A stretch of 64,000 nucleotides of DNA, from NCBI RefSeq assembly GCF_023806485.1, contig NZ_JAMSLR010000004.1, positions 310,001 through 374,000 on the forward strand, given 5' to 3'. A program made the position numbers and the translations under genes. This document shows, piece by piece, positions 10,895 to 53,399 of the stretch; positions within the stretch are counted from its first letter, which is position 1; every line of letters starts with the position of its first letter. The notes beneath the pieces were generated by a model. The model saw only the letters and a list, made by a program, of their open reading frames with translations. It ran no database searches and was not told the origin of the DNA. Source of the DNA: Thermalbibacter longus (GTDB lineage: Bacteria > Chloroflexota > Chloroflexia > Thermomicrobiales > Thermomicrobiaceae).

Positions 10895-11228
10895 GGTTGC
10901 AATCCCTTCTCAAATCCCGTGATCAACGGCTCGGCAAGAAATAGGCACAGGCCACGAAATCGGTGAGGCCCGCGCTCCGTGCGAAAGAGCCGCCGTTGAG
11001 CGACAGTCCGTCTGGGAGACGGAAAACGACCGCCTCTACGAAACGTAACGTTCAAACACGCCATTGGCTTCGCCAAGGAGTCTCCGCGCCTCGCTGGTGC
11101 GCTGACTCGAGTCCGAGCCATCGAGGGAGACAGGAGCTATCGCGACGTGTGCGCTGCAAAGGTGGCTCGTGGGTATAATGCGCGGGGTCTCGGCCGGGCC
11201 AAGGGCTGTGAGCGAGGAGGATGCGAGC
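10895..11228. other. Divergent intergenic region (334 bases)
   Basis: No convincing gene is seen. On the plus strand TATAAT at 11174-11179 is a strong -10 candidate for the ThDP enzyme that starts at 11229, with no clear -35. A small hairpin CCGTCT-GGG-AGACGG lies at 11008-11022. I see no recognisable riboswitch. Confidence 0.5.
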
Positions 11229-12839
11229 GTGTCGAAGCGGATCAAGGGTGGGCAGGCGGTCGTCGAGGCGCTGGAGCGCCTCGGTGTCGAGGTCGTCTTC
11301 GGTATTCCCGGGGTGCACACGCTGGAAATCTACGACGCGCTCTACGACTCGTCCATCCGCCACGTGCTGGCACGGCACGAGCAGGGCGTCGGGTTCATGG
11401 CCGACGGCTACGCGCGCGCCTCTGGCCACCCGGGAGTCGCGATCGTCATCACTGGCCCGGGCGTGACGAATATCGCTACGCCGATCGGCGAGGCGTATGC
11501 TGACTCCTCACCGGTGCTAGTGGTGGCTTCGAACGTCGCACAGCCGTGGCAGGGGCGGATGCTCGGCTACCTGCACGATCTGAAGGATCAACTCGGCGTC
11601 ATGCGGGCCGTGACCAAGTGGTCTGGCCAGGCCCGTCGGGTCGAGGAGGTGCCGAGCCTGCTGGCGGAGGCATTCTGCCAGATGCGGCATGGTCGCCCGC
11701 GGCCGGTCTACGTCGAGGTACCCCTCGATGTGCTGGGTGGCTTCGGCGAGGTCGATCTCGATTCGATCGGCCCAGTCCGGCCGGAGCGGCCGGCCCCGCC
11801 AGCGGCCGCTGTACGGCTCGCAGTTGCAGCGATCGAGCGGGCGAGCCGGGTGGTGCTGTACTGCGGCGGAGGCGCCGTGGCCAGCGAGGCGAGCGCTGAG
11901 CTGGTCGCGCTGGCTGAGCAACTCGGAGCCCCGGTCATCACCAGTATCCAGGGCAAAGGGGCCGTGCCGGAGGATCATCCGCTCTGCCTCGGCACGCTCT
12001 GGGAGCCGGGCAACGCGGTGGATCGTTTGCTGCGGCAGGCTGACCTGGCGCTGGTGTTCGGCTCAAAGCTTGGCGCCCAGGATACCGGGGACAGGCAGCT
12101 CCCGCTGCCGGACACGATCGTTCGCGTCGATATCGATCCCGAGGAGATCCTGCGCAGCTATCTGCCGGCGCTGGCGATCGTCGCCGACGCGCGCGAGACG
12201 GCCAGAGCCTTGCTGGAGGCGCTGCGGTCGCGCGGGATCCGGAAGGAATCCTGGCCGGTCGCCGAAGTCGAGGACGTCAAGCGGCAGGCGCTCGCTGGGG
12301 CCTGGGGGCATGAGCACGCGGCCTACGTGCAGGCCCTGCGCGCGGCCATCCCGCGTGACGGGATCCTGGTCAACGACATGACCATGATGTGCTACGTTGG
12401 CAACCGGCACTATCCGGTGTATCAACCACGCACCTATCTCTTCCCCACCGGCTACGGGACGCTGGGCTTCGCGCTGCCGGCGGCGATCGGGGCCAAGATC
12501 GCTCGGCCGGAGGCCGCCGTGGTGGCGGTTGTCGGCGACGGTGGCTTCCAGTACACGATGCAGGAGCTCGCTACGGCCGTCCAGTTCCGGCTGGGCATAC
12601 CGATCGTCGTGTTCGACGACTCGACCTACACGGCGGTCAAGGAGGCGCAGGCGCGAGAGTACGACTGTCGCTTCATTGCGGTGGATTTGGTGAACCCGGA
12701 CTTCATCGAGCTGGCCGCATCCTACCGGATCCCGGCGGTACGAGCGAACTCGCCGGAGGAGCTCTCTGGAGCGATCGAGGAGGCGTTCACGCGCGACCTG
12801 CCGACGCTTATCGACGTTCCGGTCTGCTTCCCTGTCTAG
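11229..12839 (+). CDS. Thiamine-diphosphate-dependent enzyme, acetolactate-synthase large-subunit-like
   Basis: A 536-residue ThDP enzyme. The N-terminal PYR domain has the catalytic Glu in ARHEQGVGFMADGYAR (about residue 51) and TGPGVTNIATPIGEA. A central TPP_enzyme_M domain follows, then the PP domain with VVGDGGFQYTMQEL and the D...N-type cofactor motif. The start GTG 11229 was chosen because AGGAGG lies eight bases upstream; an upstream ATG at 11169 overlaps the -10 region. No small regulatory subunit gene is adjacent and the gene is single, so biosynthetic IlvB is not proven. Alternatives include 2-oxoacid decarboxylases of the AruI type. It neighbours cimA, an isoleucine gene, but is separated from it by a full leader with its own promoter. 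Confidence 0.75.
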   Translation: MSKRIKGGQAVVEALERLGVEVVFGIPGVHTLEIYDALYDSSIRHVLARHEQGVGFMADGYARASGHPGVAIVITGPGVTNIATPIGEAYADSSPVLVVASNVAQPWQGRMLGYLHDLKDQLGVMRAVTKWSGQARRVEEVPSLLAEAFCQMRHGRPRPVYVEVPLDVLGGFGEVDLDSIGPVRPERPAPPAAAVRLAVAAIERASRVVLYCGGGAVASEASAELVALAEQLGAPVITSIQGKGAVPEDHPLCLGTLWEPGNAVDRLLRQADLALVFGSKLGAQDTGDRQLPLPDTIVRVDIDPEEILRSYLPALAIVADARETARALLEALRSRGIRKESWPVAEVEDVKRQALAGAWGHEHAAYVQALRAAIPRDGILVNDMTMMCYVGNRHYPVYQPRTYLFPTGYGTLGFALPAAIGAKIARPEAAVVAVVGDGGFQYTMQELATAVQFRLGIPIVVFDDSTYTAVKEAQAREYDCRFIAVDLVNPDFIELAASYRIPAVRANSPEELSGAIEEAFTRDLPTLIDVPVCFPV

Positions 12840-13054: not shown

Positions 13055-13084
13055 TTGACGCGTGAAACGCCCGTGTAGTAGCCT
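13055..13084 (+). promoter_or_regulatory. cimA promoter
   Basis: TTGACG (13055-13060), 18 bases, TAGCCT (13079-13084). The start of transcription would be near 13091, about 20 bases before the leader-peptide GTG at 13112 and about 260 bases before cimA. Confidence 0.5.
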
Positions 13085-13111
13085 ACCAGCAGCGGTCGGA
13101 ACGGGGGTAGG

Positions 13112-13258
13112 GTGACCGTGGGCAGCGAGTATCCCCAGTCTTATGAGCATCCGCGCCTGGGCCGTGTGAGCCGGGGCGCAGCGATCATTATCGGGATTAT
13201 TCGGCCCCGCGTGGCGGGGCTTTCGGCGCTGGGGAGGGGCTCGCCCAGAATAGGTTGA
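13112..13258 (+). CDS. Isoleucine-rich leader peptide of cimA
   Basis: A 48-codon frame from GTG 13112 (a second GTG is at 13118; a later in-frame GTG is at 13166) to TGA 13256-13258. Its key feature is ATC ATT ATC GGG ATT ATT at 13184-13201, five Ile codons in six, immediately followed by a GC hairpin (13204-13220). G-rich sequence upstream can serve as a ribosome binding site, and the promoter places the 5' end only about 20 bases before the GTG, as in classical attenuation leaders. The downstream gene makes citramalate for isoleucine synthesis, which matches the codon run. The peptide itself need not have any function beyond being translated. Confidence 0.62.
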   Translation: MTVGSEYPQSYEHPRLGRVSRGAAIIIGIIRPRVAGLSALGRGSPRIG

Positions 13259-13325
13259 CCGTACGACCAGGACATGAATGCGGTTGGAGCGGCCTCCCCA
13301 GAGCGGGGAGGCCGCCAGCGTTTGG
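13204..13325 (+). terminator. Attenuator of cimA: pause hairpin, antiterminator and terminator segments
   Basis: Three RNA segments are visible. GCCCCGC (13204-13210)/GCGGGGC (13214-13220) is a 7-bp hairpin just after the Ile codons. CTGGGGAGG (13229-13237) is perfectly complementary (9 bp) to CCTCCCCAG (13293-13301). GCGGCCTCCCC (13289-13299)/GGGGAGGCCGC (13305-13315) is an 11-bp terminator-like hairpin, followed by only a short T stretch (CAGCGTTT). The last two structures use the same CCTCCCC and exclude each other. A ribosome stalled on the Ile codons would open the first hairpin and leave 13229-13237 free to block the terminator. The weak U-tract is the main reservation. Confidence 0.6.
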
Positions 13326-13351
13326 TGCGCTCGATGGATGGGAGGCAGGCG

Positions 13352-14962
13352 GTGGACGGGACAGATGGGCGCCGGAGGGTTGCGATCTACGACACGACCC
13401 TGCGCGACGGATGCCAGGGGTCGGGTGTCTCGCTGACGACCGAGGACAAGCTGAAGATCGCTCGCGCGCTCGACCGGCTGGGCGTCGCCTACATCGAGGG
13501 TGGTTGGCCAGGTTCCAATCCGAAGGACATTGCATTCTTCGAACGGGCCGCGCGCGAGACCTGGCAGCACGCTCGCATCGCGGCCTTCGGCAGCACTCGC
13601 CGGGCCGGGGTGCGCGCCGACGAGGATCCCAACCTCCGGCTGCTCGTCGAAGCTGGAACCCCGACCGTCACGATCGTCGGCAAGGCTTCCCCCTTCCAGG
13701 TGCAACACGTGCTGAATACCACCCTCGATGAGAACCTGCGTATGGTGGCCGACTCGGTCGCCCACTTGAAGCAGGCTGGCAGGGAGGTCTTCTTCGATGC
13801 AGAACATTTCTTCGATGGCTACTCCGAGGATCCGGAGTATGCCGTGGCAGTACTGCGGGCCGCCTGCGAGGCCGGGGCTGATGCGGTCGTGCTCTGCGAC
13901 ACCAACGGCGGCACGCTCACTGGCCCGCTAGCCGAGGCCGTGCGCCGGGTTGTACGAGCCGTGCCCTGCGCGGTCGGTATCCATACCCACAATGACTGCG
14001 AGCTGGCGGTGGCGAACTCCATCGCGGCAGTCGAGGCCGGGGCGATCCAGGTGCAGGGGACGATCAACGGGCTGGGGGAGCGGGTCGGCAATGCCAACCT
14101 GTGCTCGCTGATCCCGGTATTGGAGTACAAGCTGGGCTACCGCTGCCTGCCGCCGGGGCATCTGGCACGGCTTACCGAGGTCTCGCGCTACGTGGCGGAA
14201 GTGGCGAATCTGGCGCATGATCCGAAGCTCCCGTTCGTCGGTGCTCAGGCATTTACCCATAAGGCCGGGTTGCACGTGCACGCGGTGGCGAAGACGCCCG
14301 CCGCGTACGAGCACATCCCGCCCGAGGTGGTGGGGAACACGCGCCACATCCTGGTGTCGGAGCTGAGCGGCCGGAGCAACGTGGTCGTGAAGGCGAAGTC
14401 GTTCGGGATCGACCTCGGCGGGCAGCCCGACATCGTGCGGCGACTGGTCGAGCAGATCAAAGAGCTCGAGTTCCTGGGCTTCTGGTTCGAGGATGCGGAT
14501 GCTTCGCTCGAGCTGCTCATCCGCCGGGCACTGCCCGGCTACCAGGCGCCGTTCGAAGTGCTGGACTACACCGTGCTAACCGAGTACCGCGGCGGGCGTG
14601 GGATGCTGGCTGAAGCGACTGTCAAGCTACGTATCGGCGACCAGGTGTTCCACACCGCTGCTGAGGGGAACGGGCCGGTGAACGCGCTCGACCAGGCGAC
14701 CCGAAAGGCGCTCCAAGGCTTCTACCCCCAGATCAGCGAGGTGCGATTGGAGGACTACAAGGTGCGCGTGCTCGACGACCACCACGGCACCGGTGCCAAG
14801 GTTCGAGTGTGGATCCGCTCGGGTGACCACCAGCGGAGCTGGAGCACGGTCGGCTGCTCGACGAATATCATCGAGGCCTCCTGGATGGCGCTCGCCGACA
14901 GCCTGACCTACCCGCTAGTGGTACCGGTCACCGAGACAGTGATGCGAGCCTTCCCCGGCTGA
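13352..14962 (+). CDS. cimA: Citramalate synthase
   Basis: A 536-residue acyltransferase of the isopropylmalate-synthase superfamily that condenses pyruvate and acetyl-CoA to (R)-citramalate, the first step of the threonine-independent isoleucine route. The N-terminal IYDTTLRDGCQGSGVSLTTEDK is the CimA form of the metal/substrate motif, with YIEGGWPGSNPKD, GLHVHAVAK and a C-terminal LeuA-type allosteric domain (about residues 385-536) that in the family binds isoleucine. I chose GTG 13352 because GGGAGG lies six bases upstream; the frame opens at 13274 but that part overlaps the attenuator hairpin. Regulation is probably both enzymatic (Ile feedback) and by the Ile leader peptide upstream. 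Homocitrate synthase or LeuA are less likely given the motif. Confidence 0.9.
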   Translation: MDGTDGRRRVAIYDTTLRDGCQGSGVSLTTEDKLKIARALDRLGVAYIEGGWPGSNPKDIAFFERAARETWQHARIAAFGSTRRAGVRADEDPNLRLLVEAGTPTVTIVGKASPFQVQHVLNTTLDENLRMVADSVAHLKQAGREVFFDAEHFFDGYSEDPEYAVAVLRAACEAGADAVVLCDTNGGTLTGPLAEAVRRVVRAVPCAVGIHTHNDCELAVANSIAAVEAGAIQVQGTINGLGERVGNANLCSLIPVLEYKLGYRCLPPGHLARLTEVSRYVAEVANLAHDPKLPFVGAQAFTHKAGLHVHAVAKTPAAYEHIPPEVVGNTRHILVSELSGRSNVVVKAKSFGIDLGGQPDIVRRLVEQIKELEFLGFWFEDADASLELLIRRALPGYQAPFEVLDYTVLTEYRGGRGMLAEATVKLRIGDQVFHTAAEGNGPVNALDQATRKALQGFYPQISEVRLEDYKVRVLDDHHGTGAKVRVWIRSGDHQRSWSTVGCSTNIIEASWMALADSLTYPLVVPVTETVMRAFPG

Positions 14963-18544: not shown

Positions 18545-18690
18545 GCCTATCGGGACTCAGCGCATCAGGTGGCGCCGCCCGCCCGTACGCCGGCGGGCGT
18601 AGTAGTCATCTCGAACCCGGTGCGCTGCGCGGGATGCCACACGGCCTATCCGCTCTCCCTGCTTGCCTACGGCGCCGCCAGCCCGTACGC
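18545..18690 (-). repeat. Imperfect direct repeat in the asd leader, period about 100 bases
   Basis: Two copies of about 46 bases, 18545-18590 and 18644-18690. Read on the plus strand each begins GCCTATC and ends GGCGCCGCC(C/A)GCCCGTACGC (19 of 20 identical); the ~20 bases between differ. Both lie in the transcribed leader and both carry the GTAC-centred segment involved in the antiterminator pairing. Confidence 0.6.
18565..18642 (-). CDS. Threonine-rich leader peptide of asd
   Basis: A 25-residue frame from GTG 18642 to TGA 18567-18565, with AGGGAG about ten bases upstream. It carries five Thr codons, three of them consecutive (ACT ACT ACG at 18606-18598) directly after an internal ATG (18609) and directly before the antiterminator arm at 18594-18585; the last sense codon is also Thr. 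Threonine is an end product of the pathway that asd serves. The arrangement is that of enterobacterial thr-type attenuation. Confidence 0.6.
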   Translation of the reverse strand: MWHPAQRTGFEMTTTPAGVRAGGAT

Positions 18691-21059: not shown

Positions 21060-21203
21060 AAAAAACCTCCACGCAAGGTGGAGGGCTTCTCACTTACCGC
21101 GCTCATCGTGCGGAGCTCCGCTCCGCCGGCATTGGCACCTGGCGCATGCGCGCTGGTTGCCGGGCTTCCTCGGGCCGTTCCCTCCACCACTCTGGATGAG
21201 CGC
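21060..21203 (-). ncRNA. SAM-I (S-box) riboswitch with intrinsic terminator, upstream of metX
   Basis: On the minus strand the aptamer is closed by a 9-bp P1, GCGCTCATC (21203-21195) with GATGAGCGC (21107-21099). Between the arms lie the conserved S-box elements CAGAGTGGTGGAGGGA, GGCCC...GAAGCCCGGCAACC and GGTGCCAATGCC. A terminator, CCTCCAC (21084-21078)/GTGGAGG (21072-21066) with TTTTTT (21065-21060), follows. A promoter precedes it at 21231-21259. The metX start lies about 150 bases beyond the terminator. Confidence 0.95.
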
Positions 21204-51410: not shown

Positions 51411-51725
51411 CTAGGGACAACCCGATAGCGCCAACGACGACGAACGGAGCGAGTACGCGCCGGAGCGGGGCTCAGCGAGCCGGCGGGTGGTGAGAAGCCG
51501 GCGCCAGCGCGGGCGCGGAATGGATCCGGGAGTTGCGCCCCGAACGCGACAAGCTAGTAGGCGGCGCCGGAGACTCCACCGTTACCTGGGAGCTGGGTAT
51601 CGGATCGGGCAGTGGCCTGGTCCCGTACTCGTAGAGGTGGGATGCCCGCGTGAGCGGCATCCAACCAGGGTGGCACCGCGGAGTGAATTGAACCTCCGTC
51701 CCTGCTGGGACGGAGGTTTTGTTTT
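51411..51725 (+). ncRNA. T-box riboswitch (tryptophan type) of the trp operon
   Basis: The T-box consensus AGGGTGGCACCGCG is present at 51667-51680. It is followed by the terminator CCTCCGTCCC (51693-51702)/GGGACGGAGG (51707-51716) with TTTTGTTTT (51717-51725). Upstream lies a long structured Stem I region; GGAATGGATCC around 51518-51527 places a TGG (Trp) codon followed by A in a plausible specifier loop. Uncharged tRNA-Trp should stabilise the antiterminator and switch on trpE and the genes behind it. The specifier assignment is inference supported by the downstream genes; the T-box itself is directly visible. It fills most of the 508-base gap before trpE. Confidence 0.92.
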
Positions 51726-51755
51726 GGCTCTTGGCTCGCGAGAGGATTGCGCAGC

Positions 51756-53399
51756 ATGGCGGAAGCGGTGGCCGCGCATCGAAGACATCGGACCTCGACG
51801 CCTCCGACTGCGGCCCGGTATCGCCCCACGCTGGCGGAGGTGGCCGCGCTGTCGGCTCGCGGTAACCTGATCCCGATCTACCGGGAAATCGTGGCCGACC
51901 TGGAGACGCCAGTCTCCGCCTTCCTCAAGGTCGCTCGCGGTCGCTATGCCTTCCTCCTGGAAAGCGTCGAAGGCGGGGAGCGGCTCGCACGCTACTCCTT
52001 CATCGGCGCCGACCCGTTCCTGACGCTGGAACTCCGCGACGGCCAGGCGGTCGCTCGCTTCCACGGCCATCGCGAGTCGGCTGAGGTGACCGGTCCACCG
52101 GTGGCGTTCGGTGGGCTCGACTATTATGGGTACCCCGCGAGCGAGCGCCGGTTCACCTTCGATGACCCGCTGGTCGCGCTGCGCCAGTACCTGGAGCCGT
52201 ACCAGACCGTCTCACTGCCCAGCATGCCTCGCTTCCTGGGGGGCGCGGTCGGTTATCTCAGCTACGAGGCTGTCCGCTACTTCGAGCGCTTGCCGGTTGC
52301 CCCGGTCGATCCGCTAGGCTTCCCTGACGGCTTCTTCATGTTCGTCGACTCGATGCTGGTCTTCGACCATCTGGAGCGAACGATCAAGGTCGTCAGCCAC
52401 GTCCACGTCGACGAGCGGACGCCGCTCGAGCAGTCCTACGGTGAAGCCGTGGATCGTATCGAGCGACTGGTGGCCCGTTTGAACGGCCCACTTCGGACGC
52501 CGCTCGGGCGAGAGCCGATCGACGAGCGTCCGTTGCCGGACCGCCTGGTTCCGAACGTCGATCAGGCGACATACGAGGCAATGGTCGGCCGGGCTAAGGA
52601 GTACATCGCAGCCGGCGACATCATTCAGGTCGTTCTGTCCCAGCGGCAGGCGCTGCACACTGGGGCTCACCCGTTCACCGTGTACCGCGCGCTGCGCCGG
52701 GTGAATCCCTCGCCCTATATGTTCTTCCTCCAGCTCGGCGATGACCACCTGATCGGCTCGTCGCCGGAGATGCTGGTCCGGCTCGACGGCGACACGCTGC
52801 TGATGCACCCGATCGCTGGCACGCGGAGGCGTGGCCGCACCGACGAGGAGGACGAGGCGCTGGCCAACGAACTGGCGAACGACGAGAAGGAACGGGCCGA
52901 GCACATCATGCTGGTCGACCTCGGCCGCAACGACATCGGCAGGGTTTCTCGACCCGGCACGGTCCGTGTGCCCAAGCTGATGGAGATCGAGCGCTACAGC
53001 CACGTGATGCACCTGGTGAGTCACGTCACCGGGATACTGCACCCCGATCTCACCGGGTTGGACGCGCTTCGCGCGTGCTTCCCGGCGGGCACGGTTAGCG
53101 GCGCGCCGAAGATCCGCGCTATGCAGATCATCGCCGAGCTCGAGCCGGAGCGACGCGGCCCCTACTCAGGGGCGGTCGGCTACGTCGACTTCGGTGGCAA
53201 TCTGGATACCGCGATCACGCTGCGCACGATCGTGATGCGCGGTCAGACGGCATATCTCCAGGCCGGCGCCGGCATCGTCGCCGACAGCGTGCCGGAGCTG
53301 GAGCACAAGGAGTGCCATCACAAGATGCGGGCGCTGGTGCGCGCGATCGAGCTGGCGGAGGAGATAGAGCGAGAGCTCCGGGAGGGCGGCACACCATGA
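51756..53399 (+). CDS. trpE: Anthranilate synthase component I
   Basis: A 547-residue chorismate-utilising enzyme forming anthranilate with TrpG. The N-terminal [19 protein letters not shown] (in part LLESVEGG) is the tryptophan feedback site. The catalytic domain has VQVVLSQR-like [45 protein letters not shown] and [21 protein letters not shown] 51756 has GAGAGGA about nine bases upstream; a TTG three codons earlier is possible. It is first in the T-box-controlled operon and overlaps trpG by four bases. Confidence 0.95.

Follow-up and report, generated by a model that had tools for sequence, protein, structure and literature searches.

The gene for citramalate synthase (cimA) in the 64-kb window, by which we mean the whole stretch of DNA analysed, is preceded by a leader that is very probably a ribosome-mediated transcription attenuator of the trp/thr/ilv type, which would sense charged tRNA-Ile and control cimA. 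The parts of this leader, their conservation, selection at the codon level, the alternative pairings and the linkage to cimA are established (Table 1). An ilv-type attenuation layout had been proposed in a sequence-only reading of the locus; its Ile run, its hairpins of 7 and 11 bp and its 9-bp antiterminator pairing each lie in the sequence where it had placed them, its interpretation is largely upheld, and Ile codons, hairpin and antiterminator pairing recur in all 15 relatives, the folding being computational.

Table 1. Features of the cimA leader, in window positions.
Feature	Positions	Strand	Basis
Probable promoter: TTGACG (13055-13060), 18-base spacer, TAGCCT (13079-13084)	13055-13084	+	by eye
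Leader ORF, 46 aa, C-terminal end ...AAIIIGIIRPRVAGLSALGRGSPRIG, stop TGA 13256-13258	13118-13258	+	start common to four genus members
Possible protector strand (region 1) CCCCAG, partner CTGGGG of the antiterminator strand	13133-13138	+	unconstrained fold, predicted
Control codons ATC ATT ATC GGG ATT ATT (Ile Ile Ile Gly Ile Ile)	13184-13201	+	codon table, 15 homologues
7-bp hairpin GCCCCGC-GTG-GCGGGGC, probable RNA polymerase pause hairpin, directly 3' of the Ile run	13204-13220	+	98% of cells paired, 14 homologues
Antiterminator 5' strand, core CTGGGGAGG (13229-13237)	13226-13242	+	duplex with 13287-13304; kept in 15 homologues
11-bp terminator-like hairpin GCGGCCTCCCC-AGAGC-GGGGAGGCCGC, 5' half (13293-13301) shared with the antiterminator	13289-13315	+	-27.0 kcal/mol; 95% of cells paired
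Weak U-tract CAGCGTTTGG, 3' of the hairpin	13316-13325	+	sequence
Shine-Dalgarno GGGAGG of cimA	13340-13345	+	sequence
cimA, citramalate synthase, controlled gene	13352-14962	+	TIGR00977, E 4.6e-208

The gene downstream of the leader is indeed citramalate synthase, its product scoring 691.7 bits against TIGR00977 (cut-off 450), which upholds the pathway link in the proposal. Its start is most likely the GTG at 13352, which places the 11-bp hairpin upstream of cimA; an in-frame ATG at 13274 is unconserved. Directly upstream of cimA, at 11169-12839 (+) of the window, lies a thiamine-diphosphate enzyme of the acetolactate-synthase kind, which passes the cut-off only of the 5-guanidino-2-oxopentanoate decarboxylase model (516.5 versus 500) and is not a biosynthetic IlvB by cut-off; same-family matches adjoin cimA in G005, G006 and G011 too. 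The leader frame had been taken to run from 13112 to 13258. This frame and its stop hold, but its start does not: GTG 13112 and GTG 13118 are both in frame with the Ile run, and it is the 46-aa start at GTG 13118 that is conserved, being common to four genus members, with ATG at the same place in L003 and L004. Shine-Dalgarno-like bases precede the leader ORF in most of the 15 homologues. A strict consensus scan of the window locus called neither promoter nor terminator; by eye, TTGACR and a TAGGCT/TACACT-like box, 17-18 bases apart, are present in all 15 upstream sequences.

The Ile run is exceptional within the window, since at least five Ile in six codons occur at one of 127,964 positions on both strands and in all frames of the 64 kb (binomial 1.5e-6 per position). 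Relatives with the hairpin were inspected for missing Ile codons, and 15 of 15 carry four or five Ile (rarely Leu, Met or Thr) among the last six or seven codons before it. Four control-codon columns are Ile in 15/15, 14/15, 15/15 and 13/15 leaders, with ATT/ATC wobble between leaders. Immediately downstream, within the first hairpin, residues vary (E replaces R, L or Q replaces V, and T, P or G replaces A) while the stem bases are unchanged, and non-synonymous changes fall in the loop and at mismatched positions. Wobble in the Ile run together with constant stems fits selection on both codons and RNA. ATT makes up 8% of the Ile codons in seven window genes and three of the five in the leader (Fisher p=0.008 against six genes). 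At the control positions, a preference for codons that are rare in the genes of the genome (ATT 8%, CTT 5%, ACT 6%, GTA 5%) is seen in the G000 leaders of cimA, ilvB, leuA and asd alike. One tRNA normally reads both ATT and ATC, so differences in isoacceptor charging are not the explanation of the rare control codons, which might instead be favoured because wobble makes their decoding slow or because they avoid structure.

Searching 41 genomes for the CimA protein identified true cimA (at least 71% identity) in 15, all of them in the family of the window, and the other matches, at about 33% identity or less, resemble leuA or other family members. Fourteen upstream regions were aligned, and the fifteenth, L045, was found on a split contig. 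Each of the 15 has the same order of elements, namely a leader ORF opened by a start codon, the Ile run, an immediately adjoining GCCCCG-N-CGGGGC, [G]GGGAGG, the stop, a CCTCCC...GGGAGG hairpin and then cimA, and this anatomy persists in relatives whose cimA is only 71-73% identical. A covariance model of the leader core (R1) was run on 158 genomes of the class and on 400 genomes of the phylum that lie beyond the family. It matches 15 of the 158, once each and always upstream of cimA; the leader is missing from six family members in which cimA was not detected, some of those genomes being incomplete. No credible copy was found among the 400 genomes sampled across the phylum, where the best match (E=0.039) lies inside an acetyltransferase-like coding frame and was set aside as chance. 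Elsewhere in the phylum cimA often directly follows what reads as leuB, and inspection of 21 cimA upstream regions of other classes revealed no leader ORF rich in Ile codons; the one frame that was flagged there (L048) is coding sequence.

Within the window copy, the core CTGGGGAGG of the antiterminator strand pairs over 9 bp with CCTCCCCAG of the terminator-like hairpin, and GCTC (13239-13242) with GAGC (13287-13290) provides a possible extension. When the region 3' of the first hairpin is paired with the 5' half and loop of the terminator, the resulting duplex reaches -29.8 kcal/mol in the window (p=0.003 versus dinucleotide shuffles), and each of the 15 leaders outdoes its shuffles (p 0.001-0.021, -19 to -31 kcal/mol). 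Because antiterminator and terminator share a strand, the two are mutually exclusive in the computed folds. The pairing strands differ by genus, being CTGGGGAGG/CCTCCCCAG in the window and GCGTTGGGGAGG/CCTCCCCAGCGC or GGGAGGCATC/GATGCCTCCC in other genera. The expectation of a covarying antiterminator was borne out in that the pairing is kept, with changes, in 15 of 15, but not in its statistics: compensatory changes are almost absent and the pair counts of the alignment do not rise above alignment shuffles, as the helices barely vary within the closest genera. Covariation was therefore dropped as proof, and the case rests on conservation, wobble and the shuffled-sequence tests.

The position of the leader stop codon, whose first base in the 15 leaders lies from 2 bases upstream to 12 bases downstream of where the antiterminator strand ends, implies that a terminating ribosome should cover or abut that strand. 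With a ribosome placed computationally on the stop codon, the terminator fold is obtained in all eight leaders tested. With a ribosome placed on the Ile codons, the antiterminator is the minimum fold of the free RNA for the window copy and for the three U-tract leaders (L013, L014 and L045), whereas in the other four of the eight leaders the terminator outweighs the antiterminator at equilibrium. For these, kinetics must be invoked, as the antiterminator can form first, and we infer that it would win kinetically during transcription.

The first hairpin is nearly invariant among the 14 homologues and hence gives no covariation signal. It was considered as a protector and rejected, as it has no strand in common with the antiterminator; a role as a pause site is suggested instead. 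In the unconstrained fold, the antiterminator strand pairs with the early leader ORF, enclosing the Ile codons and the first hairpin, with CCCCAG pairing to CTGGGG in the window and CCCCAA to TTGGGG in L003. This protector has P 0.86 in the window (shuffle p=0.05) and P 0.62-0.87 in 14 of 15 leaders, where shuffled leaders also reach 0.2-0.6 and single-leader p values span 0.03-0.5; with four genera combined, p is about 0.009. A protector pairing of the early frame is thus predicted with weak support and taken as probable.

We propose that, as a ribosome moves through the 46 codons of the leader, RNA polymerase, which the first hairpin probably delays, would make the remainder. When isoleucine is ample, the ribosome would reach the stop codon and cover or abut the antiterminator core, such that the 11-bp hairpin would form and transcription would end. 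When isoleucine is short, the ribosome would halt on the Ile codons, leaving the antiterminator strand free to pair with CCTCCCCAG, and cimA would be transcribed. Should translation fail altogether, the early frame would probably hold the antiterminator strand, in the manner of a classical protector, and termination would be favoured. The stalling, pausing, termination and isoleucine response of this scheme are what we infer from the arrangement of the parts.

The step that calls for most caution is termination. The sequence-only reading had flagged the U-tract as weak, which is a real weakness in the genus of the window, the window copy having GTTT only, some six bases past an extended G+C stem; it does not apply to L013, L014 and L045, where GGGAGG is followed by a canonical TTTTTT (six or seven T), as in a plain intrinsic terminator. 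A good U-tract is missing in 12 of the 15 homologues. In the window's genus, the L006-L012 genus and L005, the stem is lengthened by G+C pairs that occupy the place where other homologues have the U-tract, with only short runs of T some bases further on. The leuA and ilvB hairpins of the same genomes have undergone the same U-tract-poor change. A weak U-tract was considered as a genus-wide habit and rejected, because TTTTGTTTT is retained elsewhere in the window, at asd and at the trpE T-box. The long stem may be enough at the growth temperature, or a factor may assist. The weak U-tract is accounted for only in part. An Ile-sensing leader of the same kind might, in the window's genus, carry a hairpin without intrinsic termination, acting through Rho/NusG or as a pause or processing site, with ribosome position still setting the fold. 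The erosion of the U-tract in the window's genus, a related thermophile-like genus and L005 in favour of a longer G+C stem speaks for such a leader, as does the like alteration at ilvB and leuA. However, L013, L014 and L045, like the ilvB leaders of another family, have plain intrinsic terminators at the homologous positions, and high temperature may lower the need for U; we regard this variant as unlikely. Tentative, and likewise on the unlikely side, is a broader proposal for the thermophile-like genera, in which the U-tract terminators of cimA, ilvB and leuA would have been rebuilt as long G+C stems, the switch operating through factor- or temperature-dependent termination and leuA combining a Leu T-box and a Leu leader in series.

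Alternative folds that open and close the ribosome-binding site of cimA, that is, translational attenuation, would agree with the complementarity of CCTCCCC to the Shine-Dalgarno GGGAGG and with the leuA leaders of a related family (L166, L167, L169-L171), which do without the second terminator. The Shine-Dalgarno, however, lies 25 bases past the hairpin and takes part in neither window fold, and homologues carry plain terminators at the position of the cimA hairpin, making this reading improbable. A leader peptide that acts as an arrest peptide, sensing isoleucine or another ligand, is less probable again: the motif IIxII[RE]PRVAG is conserved, but wherever the hairpin persists its residues still vary (E for R, Q or L for V, and T, G or P for A), and the Ile codons are kept but wobble. 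That the hairpins are accidents of G+C-rich intergenic DNA has a negligible chance of being true. The overall folding energy of the window leader is indeed unremarkable (z -1.48), and it is therefore conservation, not energy, that carries the case; the same anatomy in 15 genomes over the full range of cimA divergence refutes chance.

Further leaders at ilvB, leuA and asd of the same genomes, each with codons to match, strengthen the attenuator reading of cimA. The ilvB leaders (L172-L175 and L190-L204, of which L173 is upstream of ilvB at G000:C12:104706) are rich in Leu, Ile and Val, for example LLVRSLILLIVGILIILRASGLGG before the stop, and have an antiterminator of the cimA type, GGGAGGC (p 0.001-0.14), and a terminator GAGCCTCCC..GGGAGGCTC; this leader is conserved across several families, with a canonical U-tract terminator in other families. 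At leuA (L068:11707-12206 in G000; L069, L070 and L152-L165), a Leu T-box (RF00230), with CUC as its specifier by inspection, is followed by a Leu-rich leader ORF, a hairpin and a second terminator, the last of which is missing in the related family L166, L167 and L169-L171. How well the antiterminator of the leuA leader is supported varies by genus, from strongly to not at all. Before asd, an attenuator-like leader element at 18565-18642 (-) of the window encodes the Thr-rich MWHPAQRTGFEMTTTPAGVRAGGAT up to its stop and has a hairpin, followed by a canonical terminator CCGGCAGAGG..CCTCTGCCGGTTTTGTTTTGG at 18539-18512 (-). Thr-rich leaders precede asd in relatives too; with the region chosen for the test, no antiterminator was established for asd outside its own genome. 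No leader is present at ilvD.

A T-box or riboswitch was also considered for cimA and rejected, as its leader has no Rfam match at E<=1 except two chance ones and falls below the gathering threshold for every Rfam leader family. Over the whole window, the only match at the Rfam gathering threshold is a SAM riboswitch (RF00162) at 21100-21202 (-), with 83.4 bits. Upstream of trpE (51894), AACCAGGGTGGCACCGCGG and a U-tract terminator at about 51450-51790 (+) constitute a T-box that the gathering scan leaves unreported.

These observations would add citramalate synthase to the genes under leader-peptide attenuation, and a deep-branching, partly thermophilic group to the bacteria that use it, and they point to a pathway-wide logic of Ile codons at cimA, Leu codons at leuA, mixed codons at ilvB and Thr codons at asd. 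The Leu T-box and Leu leader in series at leuA offer two tRNA-sensing devices that can be compared on one transcript, and versions of one terminator with and without a U-tract make the need for the U-tract directly testable. In the open-access literature searched, we found leader-peptide control described neither for cimA nor for this bacterial group.

Leader-peptide attenuators are classical, as in E. coli trp, thr and ilv. The leaders of E. coli ilvGMEDA (ilvL) and thr (thrL) resemble that of the window in having a leader peptide with end-product codons and competing antiterminator and terminator before a biosynthetic gene; ilvL contains ...IIIPPCGAALGRGKA, of similar wording to the cimA leader, a likeness to be treated as a lead only. 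The window leader differs in controlling cimA, which is absent from E. coli, in using Ile only and in its weak U-tract, and, unlike the textbook E. coli case, its first hairpin and antiterminator strand are separate. The demonstrated likeness is one of layout. Leader peptides with hairpins are predicted for ilvB in Actinobacteria, where codon replacement in the Streptomyces ilvB leader was without effect (PMC1262725), so that homology of mechanism is not to be assumed. The attenuator of Corynebacterium ilvBNC is reported to have been tested by mutation (PMC11857589). Actinobacteria ilvB (PMC1262725) and Corynebacterium ilvBNC (PMC11857589, PMC10272879) share a short Ile/Val/Leu ORF and a terminator hairpin with the cimA leader and differ in gene and phylum. 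T-boxes are known in Chloroflexi (PMC2494555), and a 2025 survey reported tandem riboswitches to be marginally enriched in Thermomicrobiota (PMC12452182). T-box leaders (RF00230) sense uncharged tRNA and serve leuA and trpE here, whereas the cimA leader would instead use the ribosome.
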